DNA of 64,000 nucleotides from positions 1,550,001 to 1,614,000 of the forward strand of contig NZ_JAUSRB010000001.1 in the NCBI RefSeq assembly GCF_030811595.1, read 5' to 3'. Positions 53,262-61,782 of the stretch are shown piece after piece. Numbering within the stretch: the first letter of the stretch is position 1; the number at the start of each line of letters is the position of its first letter. Below the pieces are notes generated by a model that did not search any database, was not told where the DNA came from, and saw only the letters and a list, made by a program, of their open reading frames with translations. The translations under genes and the position numbers were made by a program. Source of the DNA: Streptosporangium brasiliense. GTDB lineage: Bacteria > Actinomycetota > Actinomycetes > Streptosporangiales > Streptosporangiaceae.

Positions 53262-53374
53262 AACCCTAATCATCGCTGACCGTTTCGTCCGTCTGATGCG
53301 GATTCATGATTCCAGAAGTGTCGGCGATCTCTGGTAGGACGTGATCTGTCATGTTTCGCCTGACAGGAGCCAGG

Positions 53375-54337
53375 ATGGACTACAGCGAGTTCAACGACGA
53401 GGTCAACAGGCTGAACCGAGGAAGCTACGCCGGCCTGCCCGTCGTCGAGGCCCCCGGAAGCGACGGCGCGCCTCCGGAAGGGCTGCCGGCCCCCGAGTCG
53501 GCGGCCTGGCGGGTCTCCTGGAGCTGGCGGAGCGACGGGTTCGAGACGAACTTCCGGCACTTCCTCACTGTGGTGGACCCGACGAAGGTGTCCGCCCTCA
53601 TCGTCGGCGACTGGGGAAACGCCTACGAGAGCAGTTCCGAGCAGGCCGTGGGTCTTCTCGTGGAGCACGCCGACCGCTTCCCCGCCCTGCGCTCGCTGTT
53701 CCTCGGCGCGATCGCGTCGGAGGAGTGCGAGATCTCCTGGATCAGGCAGAGCGACGTCACGCCGCTGCTGGAGGCGTTCCCGTCGCTGGAGCGGCTGGAG
53801 GTGCGCGGCGGCTCCGGGCTCCTGCTCCGGCCGGTCCGGCACGACAGTCTCAGGGTGCTGCGGTTCGAGACGGGCGGGCTGCCGGCCGAGGTGGTCCGCG
53901 CGGTCGGCGCGAGCGACCTGCCCGCGCTCGAATACCTGGAGATGTGGCTCGGCACGAGCGACTACGGAGGGGACGCCACGGTGGCCGATCTCGCGCCGGT
54001 CCTGTCGGGGGAGCGGCTGCCCGCCCTGCGGCACCTCGGCCTGCAGGACAGCGAGATCCAGGACGAGATCGCCGCGGCCGTGGCGTCGGCGCCGGTGGTG
54101 GCCGGGCTGGGGTCGCTGGCCCTGTCGATGGGCACGCTGACCGACGAGGGCGCCGAGGCGCTGCTGTCGGGCCAGCCGCTGACCCACCTCGGGCGCCTGG
54201 ACCTGCACCACCACTACCTGACCGACATGATGGTCAAGCACGTCGAGGCGGCCTTCGCCGGCACCGGCGTCGAGGTCGACCTGTCCGAGCAGGAGGAGCC
54301 GGACGAGGACTGGCGCTACGTCGCCGTGGCCGAATGA
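53375..54337 (+). CDS. STM4015 family leucine-rich-repeat protein
   Basis: A 320-residue soluble protein. An N-terminal globular part is followed by LRR-like repeats at about 25-residue steps: LRSLFLGAI, LERLEVRGG, LRVLRFETG, LEYLEMWLG, LRHLGLQDSEI, LGRLDLHHH. It matches the STM4015 family, named after a Salmonella gene of unknown function. The ATG at 53375 has AGGAG; an in-frame ATG at 53351 is possible. It is the first of five overlapping genes. An LRR surface suggests that it binds a partner or substrate of the other four. Confidence 0.88.
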   Translation: MDYSEFNDEVNRLNRGSYAGLPVVEAPGSDGAPPEGLPAPESAAWRVSWSWRSDGFETNFRHFLTVVDPTKVSALIVGDWGNAYESSSEQAVGLLVEHADRFPALRSLFLGAIASEECEISWIRQSDVTPLLEAFPSLERLEVRGGSGLLLRPVRHDSLRVLRFETGGLPAEVVRAVGASDLPALEYLEMWLGTSDYGGDATVADLAPVLSGERLPALRHLGLQDSEIQDEIAAAVASAPVVAGLGSLALSMGTLTDEGAEALLSGQPLTHLGRLDLHHHYLTDMMVKHVEAAFAGTGVEVDLSEQEEPDEDWRYVAVAE

Positions 54338-55476
54338 CCTCGCTGACGGTCGTCGGCACGCCGGGGGAGCGCCGGGTGACCATGTTCGCCGACGCCTGCG
54401 TCCGGTACGGCCTGCGGGAGCCCGCCGTCCTGCCGTGGACCTCCGTGCTGCGGGGCAGGGACATCCCGCTGCGGCCGGGGACGCTGGTGCGGATCGAGTC
54501 GCCCGGAGAGGACGCCGAGGCCGACGCGCTGCTGCGCGGGCCGGGCGAGCCGTCCCGGGTCGGCGGCGGCGCCGCCTGGCACGCCGCCTTCACCGCCGGG
54601 ACGGCGCGGATCCGCCGGGCCGTCGAGCGCACGCCCGGGGCCGTGCTGCTCTCCGACGCCGACGAGATCGCGGTGATGTTCGACAAGCGGCTGTGTCACG
54701 CGAGGCTGTCGGCGGCCGGGGTGCCGGTGCCGCCCGCGCTGCCCGGGCCGGTCGGCGATTACGTGGAGCTGCGCCGGCGGATGGACGAGGCCGGGTGGGG
54801 CCGGGTGTTCGTCAAGCCGGCCCACGGCTCGTCGGCCTCCGGCGTCATCGCCATGCAGGCCTCCGGCGACCGGGTCAAGGCGGTGACGTCCGCCGAGCTG
54901 ACCGCGGACGGGCTGCACAACTCGCTGCGGGTGCGCTCCTACGAGGACGAGCTCGACGTGGCGGCGATCGTCGACCTGCTCGCCGGGGACGGGCTCCACG
55001 TGGAGCGGTGGTTCCCCAAGGCGGGCCTCGACGGGCGGACGATCGATCTGCGCGTGGTCGTGGTGGACGGCGCGCCGACCCACGCCGTCGTCCGCGCGAG
55101 CCGTACCCCCATGACGAACCTGCATCTCGGCGGCGAGCGCGGTGATCTCGGCGCGGTCAGGACCAGGCTCGGCCCTCAGGGCTGGGAACGGGTCACCGAG
55201 GTGTGCGTCCGGGCGGCGTCGTGCTTCCCGGGGAGTCTGACCGCCGGGGTCGACCTGATGATCGGCGTCGACTGGCGGAGTGTCGCCGTGGCCGAGGTCA
55301 ACGCCTTCGGAGACCTGCTGCCCCGCCTCACCGGCTTCCCCGGCGGCGGCGCCGAGCACCTGAACACCTACGAGGCCCAGGTCCGGGCCATCCTCGCACG
55401 CCGTACGGCGGCGCCGGACACCGCCGCGCACCACCCCGCCGTACCGGCGCCCACGGGAGGGAACGCCGGTGGGTGA
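54334..55476 (+). CDS. STM4014 family ATP-grasp protein
   Basis: A 380-residue protein. The first about 100 residues form a preATP-grasp-like domain. The ATP-grasp part has FDKRLCHARLSAAGVPVP, VFVKPAHGSSASG (phosphate loop), DLRVVVVDG and the metal ligands in VAEVNAFGDLLP. It should form an amide or ester bond from a carboxyl phosphate. The start overlaps the STM4015 stop (ATGA). Within the cassette it is the probable ligase. Neither the carboxylate nor the acceptor is known. Confidence 0.9.
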   Translation: MTSLTVVGTPGERRVTMFADACVRYGLREPAVLPWTSVLRGRDIPLRPGTLVRIESPGEDAEADALLRGPGEPSRVGGGAAWHAAFTAGTARIRRAVERTPGAVLLSDADEIAVMFDKRLCHARLSAAGVPVPPALPGPVGDYVELRRRMDEAGWGRVFVKPAHGSSASGVIAMQASGDRVKAVTSAELTADGLHNSLRVRSYEDELDVAAIVDLLAGDGLHVERWFPKAGLDGRTIDLRVVVVDGAPTHAVVRASRTPMTNLHLGGERGDLGAVRTRLGPQGWERVTEVCVRAASCFPGSLTAGVDLMIGVDWRSVAVAEVNAFGDLLPRLTGFPGGGAEHLNTYEAQVRAILARRTAAPDTAAHHPAVPAPTGGNAGG

Positions 55477-56284
55477 CATGAACCGGATCGTGGGCAGCCA
55501 TGACCTCCTGCTGGTGACCCTCGACACCCTCCGCCACGACGTGGCCGACGAGCTGATCAGGGCCGGGCGGCTGCCCACCCTGGCCAGGGCGCTGCCCGGC
55601 GGGCGATGGCAGCGCAGGCACAGCCCGGCGAGCTTCACCTACGCCGCGCACGCCGCGATCCTCGCCGGTTTCCTGCCCACCCCCGCCGAGCCCGGGCCGC
55701 ACCCCCGGCTCTTCGCGGCCGCCTTCCCCGGCAGCGAGACCACGGGCGGCGGGACATGGGTCTTCGACGCGCCCGACCTGCCCGGCGGGCTGACCGCGGC
55801 CGGCTACCACACGATCTGCGTCGGCGGGGTGGGGTTCTTCAACAAGCTCACCCCGCTCGGGGCCGTGCTGCCGGGGATGTTCGCCGAGAGCCACTGGGAG
55901 CCGGAGTTCGGGGTCACCTCGCCGACCTCGTTGGAGGCGCAGATCGAGTGCGCCGAGCGGGCGGTCGCCGGAACGGACGGGCCGGTGTTCCTGTTCGTCA
56001 ACGTGTCGGCGCTGCACCAGCCCAACTGGCACCACCTGCCGGGCGCCACCCGCGAGCACGGTGACAGCCGGGAGAGCCACGCCGCCGCGCTGGAGTACGT
56101 CGACCGGCACATCGGCCGGCTGTTCGCCCTGATGAGCAGCCGGCGGCCGGGGTTCGCGATCGTCTGTTCCGACCACGGCACCGCCTACGGCGAAGATGGA
56201 TACACCGGGCACCGGATCGGCCACGAGGTCGTCTGGACCGTGCCCTACGGGGAGTTCGAGATGGAGCAGGGAGGGTGGCGGTGA
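55469..56284 (+). CDS. STM4013/SEN3800 family hydrolase (alkaline-phosphatase fold)
   Basis: A 271-residue enzyme of the alkaline phosphatase/sulfatase superfamily. Metal ligands are likely in LVTLDTLRHD (Asp19, Asp24), SDHGT, and HRIGHEV. The nucleophile is in SPASFTYAAHAAILAGFLP, where sulfatases carry a Cys or Ser and phosphatases a Ser or Thr. It is shorter than most sulfatases. The GTG at 55469 has GGAGG at eight bases and overlaps the STM4014 stop by eight bases. It probably hydrolyses a phosphoester or sulfate ester of the cassette's substrate. Confidence 0.9.
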   Translation: MGDMNRIVGSHDLLLVTLDTLRHDVADELIRAGRLPTLARALPGGRWQRRHSPASFTYAAHAAILAGFLPTPAEPGPHPRLFAAAFPGSETTGGGTWVFDAPDLPGGLTAAGYHTICVGGVGFFNKLTPLGAVLPGMFAESHWEPEFGVTSPTSLEAQIECAERAVAGTDGPVFLFVNVSALHQPNWHHLPGATREHGDSRESHAAALEYVDRHIGRLFALMSSRRPGFAIVCSDHGTAYGEDGYTGHRIGHEVVWTVPYGEFEMEQGGWR

Positions 56285-57717
56285 CTGCGAGTCCCGACCG
56301 GGGTCCGGTGCCGGAGACGGCGGAGCCGGGGCCGGTGGGCGCCCCGGCGCGGCCGGTCCCCGGCGGCCCGGCCGACGCGGGTCCCCACCAGGGAGCAGAT
56401 GCGGGCCCCTATCAGGGATACGTTTACGCCTACCCGCACAAGACGGCATACCGGCCGCTGGAGCCGCGCCCGTCGCTGCGGCAGGTGTGGGCGGCCGAAC
56501 CGCTCGGCAGCCTCTTCCTCTACCTGCACATCCCGTTCTGCGAGATGCGCTGCGGGTTCTGCAACCTGTTCACCCGGACCGGCGCCCCCGAGGAGCTCGT
56601 CGCCGCCTACCTGGACGCCCTGGAACGCCAGGCGGAGGCCGTACGGGACGCCCTGGAGGAGCCGAGGTTCGTCACCGCGGCCGTCGGCGGCGGCACGCCG
56701 ACCTACCTGAGCGCCGCCGAGCTCACCCGGATGTTCGACCTCACCGAGCGGATCATGGGCGCCGACCTGCGGGCCGTGCCGTTGTCGGTGGAGACCTCCC
56801 CGGCGACCGCGACGGCGGACCGGCTCGCCGTCCTGGCCGAGCGGGGCACGACCCGGATCTCCATCGGCGTGCAGAGCTTCGTCGACGCCGAGGTCCGTGC
56901 GGCGGTGCGCCCGCAGAAACGGCAGGAGGTCGAGGCGGCGCTCGGCCGCATCAGGGAGACCGGGTTCGAGACGCTCAACATCGACCTGATCTACGGGATC
57001 GACGGGCAGACCGAGCGCTCCTGGCGCCGCTCGCTGGAGGCCGCGCTCGCCTGGAGGCCCGAGGAGATCTACCTCTACCCGCTGTACGTCCGCCCGCTCA
57101 CCGGCCTCGGCCGCCGCGCCCGCGACTGGGACGACCACCGGCTCGGCCTCTACCGGCAGGGCCGCGACCACCTGCTGGCCGCCGGGTACGAGCAGGTGTC
57201 GATGCGGATGTTCCGGCTGCGGGGCTCCTCCGGCGCGACCGGTTACGACTGCCAGAGCGACGGCATGGTCGGGCTCGGCTGCGGGGCCCGGTCCTACACC
57301 TCCGGCCTGCACTACTCCTACGAGTACGCGGTGGGCGCCGGCCAGGTACGCGCGATCATCGACGGCTACGTACGGCTCGCACCCGAGGAGTTCGCGGTCG
57401 CCAACGTGGGGTTCCGGCTGGGGGAGGACGAACGGCGCCGCCGTCATCTGATCCAGTCGCTGCTGCAGGCCGAGGGGCTCGACACCGCCGCCTACCGGGA
57501 GCGCTTCGGCACGGAGGCGACGGCCGACTTCGGCCAGGAGCTGGAGCGCATGGCCGGCCGGGGCTGGCTGGAGCCGCTGGAGCCGGTCCGCCCGCCGGAC
57601 CCCGCCACCGGGCGGCTCCGGCTCACCGCCGAGGGGCTGGCGCACTCCGACGCGATCGGCCCGGCGCTGTTCTCCGGCCCGGTCCGCGAGCTGATGGCGG
57701 GATACCAGGAGCGATGA
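56281..57717 (+). CDS. STM4012 family radical SAM protein (HemN-like)
   Basis: A 478-residue radical SAM enzyme. The cluster motif CEMRCGFC is at residues 87-94 in the HemN-type context YLHIPFC. Further HemN-like motifs are AVGGGTPTYLS, ETSPATATADRL, RISIGVQSF and LNIDLIYGIDGQT, and a C-terminal HemW-like domain follows. A 50-residue Pro/Gly/Ala-rich tail precedes it. The GTG at 56281 overlaps the previous stop (GTGA) and has GGGAGG six bases upstream. HemN-like enzymes act on porphyrins or methylate/cyclise unrelated substrates; this branch is uncharacterised as far as I know. Confidence 0.92.
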   Translation: MTASPDRGPVPETAEPGPVGAPARPVPGGPADAGPHQGADAGPYQGYVYAYPHKTAYRPLEPRPSLRQVWAAEPLGSLFLYLHIPFCEMRCGFCNLFTRTGAPEELVAAYLDALERQAEAVRDALEEPRFVTAAVGGGTPTYLSAAELTRMFDLTERIMGADLRAVPLSVETSPATATADRLAVLAERGTTRISIGVQSFVDAEVRAAVRPQKRQEVEAALGRIRETGFETLNIDLIYGIDGQTERSWRRSLEAALAWRPEEIYLYPLYVRPLTGLGRRARDWDDHRLGLYRQGRDHLLAAGYEQVSMRMFRLRGSSGATGYDCQSDGMVGLGCGARSYTSGLHYSYEYAVGAGQVRAIIDGYVRLAPEEFAVANVGFRLGEDERRRRHLIQSLLQAEGLDTAAYRERFGTEATADFGQELERMAGRGWLEPLEPVRPPDPATGRLRLTAEGLAHSDAIGPALFSGPVRELMAGYQER

Positions 57718-58649
57718 CCGAGCGCGCGACGGGCCGTGACCTCCCCCTCCTCCCGGGGACCGGCGGCCGCGCCCTGCCCGTCCCCGTCCTGCCCGCGGGG
57801 GAGCGGGACCCCGGCCACCTGAGCATTCTCTACCGGGGACCGCTGGCGAGCTGCGACTACGACTGCCCCTACTGCCCGTTCGCCAAGCGCCGCGACGACA
57901 CCGGACGGCTGCGCCGGGACCGGGCGGCGCTGGAGCGCTTCACCGCGTGGGTGGCCGGGCGCGACCATCCGGTCTCGGTGCTGTTCACCCCCTGGGGCGA
58001 GGGGCTCGTGCGGTCGTGGTACCGGCGGGCGATGATCGGGCTCAGCCACCTCCCGCACGTCCGGCGGGTCGCCATCCAGACCAACTTCAGCTGCCGTCCC
58101 GACTGGCTGGCCGAGGCCGACCTGGGCACGCTCGCGCTCTGGGTGACCTACCACCCCGGTCAGGTCGCCTACGGGCGCTTCCTCGCCAAGTGCCGTGACC
58201 TGGCCGGGCGCGGGGTCCGCTTCAGCGTCGGCGTGGTCGGGCTGCCCGAGCACCTGGACCACGCGCGGCGGCTCCGGGCCGACCTGCCCGCCGAGGTTTA
58301 TCTGTGGGTCAACGCCGCCGAGGGCCACCCCTACACCGACGCGGAGGCGGCCGACTGGACGGCGATCGACCGCCTCTTCCGCTACAGCCGCACGCCGCAC
58401 CGCAGCGCCGGGCAGCCCTGCCGTACGGGGGACAGCGTGATCTCCGTGGACGGCGAGGGCACCGTACGGCGCTGCCATTTCGTCCCGGAGGTCCTCGGCA
58501 ACCTCTACGACGGGACGTTCCGTCCGGCGGCCAGGGCCTGCCCGGCCGCCCTGTGCGACTGCCACATCGGCTACGTCCACCTGGAGCCGACCGGCCTCTA
58601 CGACGTCTTCGCCGGGGGGATCCTGGAGCGCATCCCCCGCGCGGACTGA
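57714..58649 (+). CDS. STM4011 family radical SAM protein
   Basis: A 311-residue radical SAM enzyme with the motif CDYDCPYC (Cys47, Cys51, Cys54). The C-terminal part has five more cysteines in a SPASM-like arrangement: CRTGD, RRCHF, then ACPAALCDCH, which could hold an extra iron-sulfur cluster. SPASM/twitch enzymes often modify peptides or carbohydrates. The start overlaps the STM4012 stop (ATGA), completing five coupled genes. A tandem hairpin array directly follows the stop. Confidence 0.92.
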   Translation: MTERATGRDLPLLPGTGGRALPVPVLPAGERDPGHLSILYRGPLASCDYDCPYCPFAKRRDDTGRLRRDRAALERFTAWVAGRDHPVSVLFTPWGEGLVRSWYRRAMIGLSHLPHVRRVAIQTNFSCRPDWLAEADLGTLALWVTYHPGQVAYGRFLAKCRDLAGRGVRFSVGVVGLPEHLDHARRLRADLPAEVYLWVNAAEGHPYTDAEAADWTAIDRLFRYSRTPHRSAGQPCRTGDSVISVDGEGTVRRCHFVPEVLGNLYDGTFRPAARACPAALCDCHIGYVHLEPTGLYDVFAGGILERIPRAD

Positions 58650-58655
58650 CCGGAC

Positions 58656-58743
58656 GGCCCGCCAGGTCTCCCGGGCCGGCCCGTCAGGTCTCCCGGGCCG
58701 GCCCGTCAGGTCTCCCGGGCCGGCCCGTCAGGTCTCCCGGGCC
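58656..58743. repeat. Four tandem 22-bp hairpin repeats between convergent genes
   Basis: Units at 58656, 58678, 58700 and 58722, identical except GCC/GTC in the first. Each reads GGCCCG, ten central bases including CAGGTCTCC, CGGGCC, so each can fold with a 6-8 base stem. The fourth unit contains the stop codon of the opposing DUF6745 gene. The array probably works as a multiple terminator for both genes. Confidence 0.92.
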
Positions 58744-59759
58744 GGCCGGTAGTCGGCCTCGGACATGCCGAAGGTCCAGGCCACGCCCTCGCGGGCGGTG
58801 CGGGTGGACGGGGGCACCCGCAGCCAGTATCTGCGGAAGGTGCCGTCGGGCTCGGCGGTGGAGTTGACCACCTCGACCATCACCACCGGCTCGTCGTCGG
58901 GCAGGTCGATCCGCCACAGGACACCCGTCTCGTCCCGGTGCAGCGGGGTCGCGCCGGACTCGGCGAGGTAGCGGTCGTAGCCGAAGTGCTCCAGCATGAC
59001 GCGGCGCAGCTCCGCGTTCTCCTCGGCACGGATGCGTCCGGGGGTCAGCGTCGCCATGGAGGCGGCGAAGTCGGCCGGGACCGGCATGCCGCCCCAGGCG
59101 TGCACGGCGAAGCCGTCGGGGAACAGCAGCGCCGGGCCCTCGGCGCGGTGCAGGCGCGACAGCTCGTCGAGGTGCAGCTCGGCGGGGCGCTCGCACACGA
59201 TGGCCACCCGTTCGAACGGCCACCACCAGCCGGCCGACCGGGCGACCTGGACCAGCCCCTCCACCTCCGGCCTGCCCAGCGCGTCGAACAGCGACAGCCA
59301 CGGCGCGTCCTGCTGGCCCAGCACGGCGTCCAGGGTGGAGGCGCGCAGCGCGGCCGCGACGGGCTCCGACTCCTCCGTCGCGGCGATGCCCCGGCGGATC
59401 TGGACGACCAGCCGGTTCACCGGATCCCAGAGCCGCCCCCCGGTCAGCGACCAGGCCAGCGGCCAGTCCACAGGGCCCAGTGAGGTGTGCGCCTCGGCCC
59501 TGGCCCGCTCCCACGGGCCGGTCCGCACCGCGTCGCGCACCGGCCGGCCGGCGCCGAGCGTGGCGATGGCCCGCGCGCCCGCGGCGGGGGAGTCGACCCA
59601 GATGATCTTCTCGGGCTCGGCCAGGCCGGCGATCCGGTATGCCAGCCGTACTCCCGCCTCGGCGCCGGGCCGGTCGGCGGGACCGGACCTGAAGGCGGCC
59701 TCCTGCCAGCGGAGCGCGGCGGCGGTCAGGACGTCGGCCAGTTCGGTGGTGACGGTCAT
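58728..59759 (-). CDS. DUF6745 domain protein
   Basis: A 343-residue soluble protein. Typical segments are CERPAELHLDELSRLH, GPALLFPDGFAVHAWGG, and near the end VEVVNSTAEPDGTFRRYWLR and AREGVAWTFGM. This is the DUF6745 family, of unknown function. It is preceded at 165 bases by the small partner gene and ends inside a 22-bp repeat array, so its last residues (RPARET) are encoded by one repeat unit. No catalytic motif is evident. A beta-rich binding protein is likely. Confidence 0.88.
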   Translation of the reverse strand: MTVTTELADVLTAAALRWQEAAFRSGPADRPGAEAGVRLAYRIAGLAEPEKIIWVDSPAAGARAIATLGAGRPVRDAVRTGPWERARAEAHTSLGPVDWPLAWSLTGGRLWDPVNRLVVQIRRGIAATEESEPVAAALRASTLDAVLGQQDAPWLSLFDALGRPEVEGLVQVARSAGWWWPFERVAIVCERPAELHLDELSRLHRAEGPALLFPDGFAVHAWGGMPVPADFAASMATLTPGRIRAEENAELRRVMLEHFGYDRYLAESGATPLHRDETGVLWRIDLPDDEPVVMVEVVNSTAEPDGTFRRYWLRVPPSTRTAREGVAWTFGMSEADYRPARET

Positions 59760-59924: not shown

Positions 59925-60251
59925 TCAGTCGGCGACGACGCGGAAGGCGCCGGGGACGTATTCGCGCTGGCGCTGCACGCGGTACCAGCCCTTGGGCAGG
60001 GAGATCGCGGCGTGCTCCTCGTGGACGACGCGCCCCCCGGAGGGGACGTTCAGGAAGTCGGGGTCCATCGGCCGCAGGCCGCGCACCAGCGTGCCGGGGC
60101 CGACCACCGCGTGGGCGTGACCGGTGGCCTCACCCAGGGCCAGCACCAGCCGGCCGCGGGCGTCACGCGGCGCGGACGGCGAGGTCCGGACCGGGGCGGG
60201 CACGGCCTCCTCGTGGACGGGCACGATCAGGATGTCTCCCTGGCGGTACAT
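59925..60251 (-). CDS. Small conserved partner of DUF6745 protein
   Basis: A 108-residue protein: MYRQGDILIVPV, then LVLALGEATGHAHAVV and VHEEHAAISLPKGWYRVQRQ, ending YVPGAFRVVAD. It is beta-rich, with several conserved His (TGHAH, HEEH) that could bind metal in a cupin-like site. I know such proteins as usual neighbours of DUF6745 genes; function is unknown. The ATG at 60251 has GAGGAG nine bases upstream. Part of the upstream frame is an antisense shadow of the TetR gene region. Confidence 0.82.
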   Translation of the reverse strand: MYRQGDILIVPVHEEAVPAPVRTSPSAPRDARGRLVLALGEATGHAHAVVGPGTLVRGLRPMDPDFLNVPSGGRVVHEEHAAISLPKGWYRVQRQREYVPGAFRVVAD

Positions 60252-61056: not shown

Positions 61057-61710
61057 TCAGGCGGCGAGCTCGGCGCGTGCCACCCGGCCGAGGTCGGCGA
61101 GGACCTCGGTGTTGAGCAGGTAGGCCAGCTTGGTCTCGCGGATGATCCGCTGCCTGCCGGCCTCGTCCAGGGCCAGCGCGTCAAGCCGGGCGCGGTATTC
61201 GTTCTTGAACCGGGGCAGGCTGCCGACCCGGTCGAAGAGGTAGAAGTCGACGCCGCCGCCCGGCTGGTAGCCGTAGATCTTCTGCAGCTCCATCCGGATG
61301 AACTGCCCGCCGGACAGGTCGCCCATGTAGCGGGTGTAGTGATGGGCGATGTAGCCGTCCGGCCGGGTGGCGACCTGCTCGATGCGGGCGACCAGCGTCC
61401 GGGTCGGCGGGGAGGGCTCGATCCTGGACCGCCAGCCGGCGCCGTAGATCGTCTCCAGGTCGCGGGCCAGCGCCTCCTCGCGGTAGAGCTCGGGGAAGAC
61501 GAAGGGGGCGGCGACCGGGTCGTCGGCGAGCGCTCTGGAGGCGCCGTCGAGGGCGACGTAGGCGAAGTAGTGCTGGGCGACCATCTCGCCGTAGGCCTCG
61601 CGGCTCAGGTGGCCCGCCATCAGGGCCTTGAGGTAGCTCTCGTCCTCGGCCGCCCCGTGGTCGCTCCAGGTGGCGTCCCTGAGGACTTCGGAGAACGCTG
61701 GCTCACTCAT
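61057..61710 (-). CDS. Heme oxygenase (biliverdin-producing)
   Basis: A 217-residue helical enzyme that opens heme to biliverdin, CO and iron. The proximal His is likely His18 (ATWSDHGAAE), and the distal helix has YMGDLSGGQ with the conserved glycines. FKNEYRARLDAL matches the later helix. The ATG at 61710 is chosen for the family start MSEPAFSEVLRDAT. It lies between a TetR gene and a NarL-type two-component system, all on the same strand. The arrangement suggests heme- or iron-dependent control. Confidence 0.94.
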   Translation of the reverse strand: MSEPAFSEVLRDATWSDHGAAEDESYLKALMAGHLSREAYGEMVAQHYFAYVALDGASRALADDPVAAPFVFPELYREEALARDLETIYGAGWRSRIEPSPPTRTLVARIEQVATRPDGYIAHHYTRYMGDLSGGQFIRMELQKIYGYQPGGGVDFYLFDRVGSLPRFKNEYRARLDALALDEAGRQRIIRETKLAYLLNTEVLADLGRVARAELAA

Positions 61711-61738
61711 GATCACTCCGCGCTGAAGAGGCTTTTCA

Positions 61739-61751
61739 TGACACAGTGTCA
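61739..61751. promoter_or_regulatory. Perfect palindrome in the heme oxygenase promoter
   Basis: TGACACAGTGTCA: six-base arms around a single A, 28 bases upstream of the heme oxygenase start. It is a typical TetR-type operator. Confidence 0.75.
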
Positions 61752-61782
61752 CAAAAATCACGCACCCCCGTCAAGCTGATGA

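Follow-up and report, generated by a model that had tools for sequence, protein, structure and literature searches.

We found that five coupled genes of Streptosporangium brasiliense probably encode a protein-modification system, in which a leucine-rich-repeat (LRR) protein of the STM4015 family would be the ribosomally made carrier or substrate. The genes lie at positions 53375-58649 of the DNA analysed here, a stretch of 64,000 nucleotides (contig NZ_JAUSRB010000001.1, positions 1,550,001 to 1,614,000, forward strand) that we call the window. The glutamate with which the LRR protein ends is a likely site for the chemistry of the STM4014-family ligase encoded next to it. An earlier reading of the window, made from the sequence alone, had proposed that the LRR protein presents or binds a substrate. 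Because its C-terminal glutamate is almost invariant, and because it is multiplied 1-12 fold against a near-single ligase and STM4011, the LRR protein is probably not a mere binder but is itself worked on.

All five genes are on the + strand. In order they encode the LRR protein (320 amino acids (aa), 53375..54337; NF038076, 399.6 bits with a cut-off of 275), proposed here as the carrier or substrate; an ATP-grasp ligase of the STM4014 family with a RimK/LysX-like fold (54334..55476; 425.6 bits, cut-off 175); an alkaline-phosphatase-superfamily hydrolase of the STM4013/SEN3800 family with threonine at the nucleophile position (55469..56284; NF038075, 404.8 bits, cut-off 250); a HemN-like radical S-adenosylmethionine (SAM) enzyme of the STM4012 family (56281..57717; NF006067, 633.7 bits, cut-off 380); and a radical SAM enzyme of the STM4011 family with a twitch/SPASM-like C-terminal domain (57714..58649; NF038073, 389 bits, cut-off 200). 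Each of the five thus exceeds the curated cut-off of its NCBIfam family, and the coordinates, strands and four start/stop overlaps that couple the genes in the sequence-only reading were all correct. Since aligned relatives of STM4013 share the start MNxIVGxHD, its true start may be the ATG at 55478 rather than the GTG at 55469, which leaves the 8-base overlap with STM4014 uncertain. The LRR frame has an additional upstream ATG at 53351. A closely related STM4012 protein, with 71% identity to that of the window, is encoded in Nonomuraea gerenzanensis.

The C-terminal tail and copy number of the LRR protein

The STM4015 gene closes with codons for Arg-Tyr-Val-Ala-Val-Ala-Glu and a stop (54314..54337, + strand), with Glu320 as the last residue. 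Among 199 distinct STM4015 sequences the last residue was Glu in 196, with Tyr or Phe at position -6 in 194 and Arg at -7 in 161, giving a tail consensus of RYxAVxE behind a linker that varies in length and sequence and is mostly acidic. Open-ended open reading frames (ORFs), proteins with X and STM4015 matches below 100 bits were left out of this tally. Nested counts gave a terminal Glu in all nine of the first aligned rows, in 160 of 163 complete members, and in 110 of the 113 sequences kept when those more than 80% identical were also removed. Only 4 of 195 cassette enzymes end in Glu (3/76 for STM4014, 0/26 for STM4013, 1/47 for STM4012 and 0/46 for STM4011). The three STM4015 exceptions came from Oscillatoria, Calothrix and Pyxidicoccus loci (L099, L108 and L109), each of which has Glu-ending copies too; one of the three extends beyond the tail motif.

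The tail was confined to the STM4015 family in the places searched. A degenerate pattern, in the form R-[YF]-[VIM]-A-[VIM]-x-E only, occurred at 19 places in 31 genomes, all 19 in STM4015-family ORFs (one a weak fragment of 44.7 bits) and none in a non-LRR protein; the reversed control occurred at two places. Among 22,083 complete ORFs read in all frames of the cassette loci, no non-LRR protein carried the same tail, save one 41-residue ORF (locus L105) which reads like an LRR end. Elsewhere in the window's own genome an 85-residue ORF (L166:1501-1758, C2) matched STM4015 with 44.7 bits and ends in RYVAVAE, as a remnant LRR copy.

The LRR gene is also the part of the cassette that multiplies. 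In a profile search of 200 genomes of the window's order we counted 1-12 LRR matches per genome, with two or more in 87 of 120 genomes; copies here are hidden Markov model matches at E <= 0.001, and fragments are possibly included. STM4011 was matched exactly once in all of the 120 genomes that have it and STM4014 in 117 of 120, the others being two genomes with one gene split in two matches and one (G232) with two genes. All 45 STM4015 copies above 200 bits from nine array stretches (eight genomes) and four plasmid loci end in Glu and have Tyr or Phe at -6. This set left out six fragmentary ORFs below 200 bits (L171, L177), two of which end in Glu. Copies lying apart from the enzymes also keep the tail. 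They occur at a distance of 24 kb in Streptomyces cadmiisoli, at a separate chromosomal site in G191, on a different contig in G265, and as a lone copy within a 12.3 kb stretch of a Calothrix plasmid. Remote copies of this kind would be expected if the enzymes serve their substrates in trans, although they fall short of proving modification. The idea of a hypervariable LRR face set against a constant tail was unsupported, as mean identity between same-locus paralogues was 0.49-0.75 for the body and 0.50-0.86 for the last seven residues; among these paralogues only the linker was clearly more variable.

Cassette enzymes, proposed chemistry and rival explanations

Structure comparisons placed STM4014 near LysX/ArgX, PsnB and RimK. 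The top nine Foldseek rows were entries of LysX or ArgX in complex with LysW and of PsnB in complex with its precursor, and the top VIA-align rows were ArgX, LysX and RimK, where ranks less than 1 Z unit apart count as ties. The enzyme falls below the RimK family cut-off (TIGR00768, 29 of 143.4 bits). Amide formation, as previously suggested for the ATP-grasp enzyme, would fit the nearest folds of the modelled protein (LysX/ArgX, PsnB, RimK). By analogy with LysX acting on LysW, STM4014 would activate the carboxylate of the terminal Glu of STM4015 with ATP and join to it an amine-bearing molecule.

The radical SAM enzymes could then remodel the tail. STM4011 has eight cysteines invariant in 27 of 27 aligned rows, arranged as CX3CX2C (C47, C51, C54), CX12GX4C (C236, G249, C254) and CX4CXC (C276, C281, C283). 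A CX3CX2C motif with a C-terminal CX9-15GX4C is the signature of twitch/SPASM radical SAM enzymes, and STM4011 carries both elements. The second half of a full SPASM domain reads CX2CX5CX3C-gap-C, and only CX4CXC is invariant there in STM4011; a Bacteroides relative gave a Pfam SPASM match below the cut-off (18.3 of 21.5 bits). The C-terminal pattern therefore appears, from the alignment, to be twitch-like and not full SPASM. The best PDB sequence match was SkfB, a peptide maturase (E 0.003, a weak match). In STM4012, C87, C91 and C94 were invariant in nine aligned rows. Together the twitch-type STM4011 and the HemN-like STM4012 might alter either the aromatic residue of the tail or the attached group, by C-C, C-S or C-methyl chemistry.

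The sequence-only reading had the hydrolase removing either phosphate or sulfate. Sulfatases form their formylglycine from a Cys or Ser in a CxPxR or SxPxR motif; STM4013 instead has Thr57, invariant in 24 of 24 aligned rows, at the nucleophile position. STM4013 is therefore more likely phosphate-directed than sulfate-directed. Its best PDB sequence match was a nucleotide pyrophosphatase/phosphodiesterase (E 1.8e-6), followed by an arylsulfatase (E 5.2e-6), and at 30.7 bits it scores above the Pfam Sulfatase cut-off of 25. In the proposed pathway STM4013 would take off a phosphate or phosphodiester group, in some lineages together with a phosphatase of the HAD family. The product might be either a permanent chemical arm on the LRR protein or a released small molecule, and the evidence favours neither. 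Tentatively, and with doubt, we consider a family of LRR binders permanently armed at the C-terminal Glu, perhaps also at Tyr -6, with a group made by the radical SAM enzymes, one enzyme set serving up to a dozen LRR proteins in tandem and elsewhere. If so, the cell would hold a set of binders with one common installed cofactor or reactive group.

Several observations weigh against a modified tail. The AlphaFold2 (AF2) model of STM4015 has a mean predicted local distance difference test (pLDDT) score of 95, and still 90 over residues 311-320. The nearest solved structure, 2ra8, a relative from Bacteroides fragilis, superposes on the model through the end of the tail (model 15-320, chain 6-357). 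This relative has the same ending: residue 354 of its 362-residue chain is a Glu aligned with the last STM4015 profile column, and the eight residues that follow probably belong to an expression tag. Given the high pLDDT and this superposition, the tail probably has a packed or ordered conformation even without modification, and its conservation could be due to a structural or docking role. The tail might cap the LRR fold or plug it from within the molecule, without ever being modified, while the enzymes act on some other substrate bound by the LRR protein. We regard this as unlikely, since nearly all sequences stop exactly at Glu and one of the exceptions runs past the motif, the linker ahead of the tail varies in length and sequence, and the tail is confined to one family in the places searched. 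Alternatively, the tail carboxylate could be a docking signal bound by a cassette enzyme, a protease or an adaptor, with the LRR protein as scaffold for a small-molecule pathway. Carboxylate-binding pockets do recognise fixed free C-termini, LRR domains are binding platforms, and a small-molecule route could equally employ an ATP-grasp enzyme, a pair of radical SAM enzymes and phosphatases. However, docking leaves unexplained both why the partner ligase belongs to a type that works on the C-terminal Glu of a protein and why there are 1-12 LRR matches per enzyme set, and we consider it quite unlikely.

The remaining alternatives concern single enzymes. STM4012 resembles HemW, HemN and HutW, and the window has a haem oxygenase gene some 2.4 kb beyond STM4011, which would be in line with a haem or tetrapyrrole role for STM4012 to which the other genes are accessory. 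Yet STM4012 stays below the HemW (147.4 of 205.4 bits) and HemN (132.5 of 324.95 bits) cut-offs, and a haem oxygenase cluster common to two groups was not seen in the 42 loci chosen for neighbour comparison, so that this role is very improbable. It is scarcely credible that STM4011 activates STM4013 as the anaerobic sulfatase maturase AnSME activates sulfatases. When STM4011 was compared with the PDB, AnSME was a borderline match (E 0.066) that dropped out at E 0.1 with a larger STM4011 alignment, and although STM4013 passes the Pfam Sulfatase cut-off, formylglycine formation needs Cys or Ser. We rejected this pairing because of the invariant Thr. Modification of STM4015 at its terminal Glu is the reading we retain.

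Distribution and neighbours of the cassette

A profile scan for STM4013 in 84,980 species genomes returned at least 593 stretches, 576 of them encoding a relative, from which the best 80 were kept (57 from Paenibacillaceae). All five genes occurred together in 73 of these 80 loci. In three of the incomplete loci (L097, L102, L103) the cassette reaches the edge of the retrieved stretch, and in a fourth (L099) STM4011 was not detected within the flank. In three more (L101, L104, L118; one Thiomargarita and two Chloroflexi/Anaerolineae records) STM4013 stood without the other four genes in the retrieved stretch. The set is present in at least seven phyla (Actinomycetota, Bacillota, Pseudomonadota, Deinococcota, Cyanobacteriota, Myxococcota and Chloroflexota), and whole sets are found on plasmids of Streptomyces, Deinococcus, Methylobacterium, Paenibacillus and Salmonella. 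Within the window's order, STM4015 was above the cut-off in 120 of the 200 genomes, STM4014 in the identical 120, and STM4011 in 120, of which 119 were the same. Both exceptions are fragmented drafts, one (G210) without STM4011 and one (G233) with a partial STM4011 but none of the others. Of 149 genomes sampled across the phylum, only three, including that of the window, had STM4014 above the cut-off, and the set is therefore patchy.

The expectation that the five genes stay together was thus borne out, and since the set is kept across phyla, chance is excluded as the source of the cassette. A fixed gene order did not hold to the same degree, as STM4014 and STM4015 are oriented to face the other three genes in several Myxococcota loci. 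A self-contained, transferable unit, as envisaged earlier, is plausible because the set is fixed across phyla and occurs on plasmids. STM4012 homologues, proposed as a handle on the set, turned out to be a poor marker, since relatives above the cut-off on rhizobial and Cupriavidus plasmids lack the other four genes nearby. On plasmids of Rhizobium tropici (L001:8959-11276) and Cupriavidus taiwanensis (L002:7893-10228) an STM4012-family gene above the cut-off is followed by a class I methyltransferase, and the other four cassette genes were not found in the retrieved stretches; the R. tropici gene adjoins ccoNOQP. A Bacteroides finegoldii plasmid (L180:8611-12628) encodes a WGR-LRR form of STM4015, STM4014, an 82-residue STM4013-like piece and a fusion of STM4011 with a HAD phosphatase, and STM4012 was not detected in this stretch. 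A phage-collection record of 5,922 bases titled Salmonella phage (OR850900.1) holds an STM4011 match of 33% identity and may be host DNA. Megablast with a 4,000-base Salmonella query gave no match in the ecoli_genomes collection of E. coli, a test that does not reach distant relatives. As a candidate defence system the cassette was dropped, PADLOC returning only a 26-bit match to STM4012.

Neighbours were compared in the 42 chosen loci, among them 6 of the 57 Paenibacillaceae loci, using ORFs of at least 50 residues; locus L113 was grouped as Myxo, and its record title is Comamonas sp. KCTC 72670. In the window a DUF6745 protein (58728..59759, - strand; PF20530, 376.7 bits) is convergent with the cassette, and beside it lies a 108-aa protein with a GEATGHAH motif (59925..60251, - strand), aligned across five loci and without a Pfam match above cut-off. 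Both occur in the same 13 of the 42 loci, in four phyla (Actinomycetota, Deinococcota, Chloroflexota and that of Methylobacterium), and might be optional partners. A HAD hydrolase adjoins STM4013 in six loci with Myxococcus, Pyxidicoccus, Planctomycetales, Burkholderiales and Comamonas titles (checked against Pfam in four of the six); a Cof-type HAD lies 3' of STM4011 in Salmonella, and in B. finegoldii the two are fused. These recurring phosphatases suggest a phosphorylated intermediate. The only neighbours common to three or more groups were the DUF6745 pair, an ABC-type ATPase at a distance of at least 2 kb and the HAD hydrolase, with no precursor peptide or exporter among them. The search for a sixth partner thus yielded a HAD hydrolase or the DUF6745 pair, but no short peptide gene or exporter common to two or more groups was picked out, nor a protease gene common to several. 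An efflux transporter related to the major facilitator superfamily (MFS) gene of the window recurs in four loci of two groups.

The window's own genome has a second DUF6745 match elsewhere. Between STM4011 and the DUF6745 gene, and entering the 3' end of the latter, is a tandem repeat (58655-58747; 22-base unit, 4.2 copies, 98% matches). The haem oxygenase gene (61060-61761, - strand; PF01126, 187 bits) has a TetR gene adjacent.

Relation to known systems

All five families take their names from Salmonella locus tags, and we found no function for any of these tags in the papers searched, which excluded most subscription papers; the earlier statement that no product has been assigned agrees with this. 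STM4015 is tabulated in a study of positive selection in Salmonella (PMC2784778) and a sigma-54 site is listed at STM4013.S (PMC3844500), in both cases without a function in the passage concerned. The literature searched on LysW, on ribosomally synthesised and post-translationally modified peptides (RiPPs), on carrier peptides and on WGR/LRR proteins contained nothing that we noticed on this cassette, and no paper on 2RA8/Q64V53 or DUF6745 was found there. A cassette spread over at least seven phyla is thus without a role in the papers searched, and the C-terminal Glu of STM4015 can be named as its likely acceptor. What looks new is the LRR protein as substrate or carrier. An added group that remains in place would constitute a new kind of protein cofactor, and one that is set free would represent a new class of natural product.

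We know of no protein of the LRR kind with attachment or remodelling chemistry at its C-terminal end. Graspetides and other radical SAM RiPPs resemble the cassette in that STM4014 is near PsnB in fold and STM4011 has SkfB as its best PDB sequence match. Graspetide precursors are short, with repeated acceptor and donor motifs and a variable core, whereas here a large folded LRR protein with a near-fixed tail would serve as substrate; no common short ORF accompanied the cassette in the 42 loci except the 108-aa GEATGHAH family. RimK, which acts on ribosomal protein S6, differs in that STM4014 is below its family cut-off and has radical SAM partners. In pearlin pathways, one of which includes a radical SAM enzyme (PMC9303977), a PEARL ligase builds on the C-terminus of a ribosomally made carrier, and chemistry at such a C-terminus is what we propose here. 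PEARLs, however, use aminoacyl-tRNA and short carrier peptides, and NCBIfam and Pfam scans reported no PEARL family for the five cassette genes.

The closest likeness is to LysW with LysX (ArgX) in lysine and arginine synthesis, where a protein ending in Glu behind a conserved C-terminal motif likewise has its own ATP-grasp ligase, which shares the fold of STM4014. LysW carries the motif EDWGE and is linked through the gamma-carboxyl (PMC10433800). The cassette differs in its motif, RYxA(V)xE, and in its carrier, an LRR protein of about 280-500 residues where LysW is a small zinc protein. It further has two radical SAM enzymes in place of LysZ, LysY, LysJ and LysK, and 1-12 LRR matches per genome. 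If the C-terminal Glu of STM4015 is indeed the acceptor, the cassette would extend the idea of a LysW-type carrier to large folded proteins.

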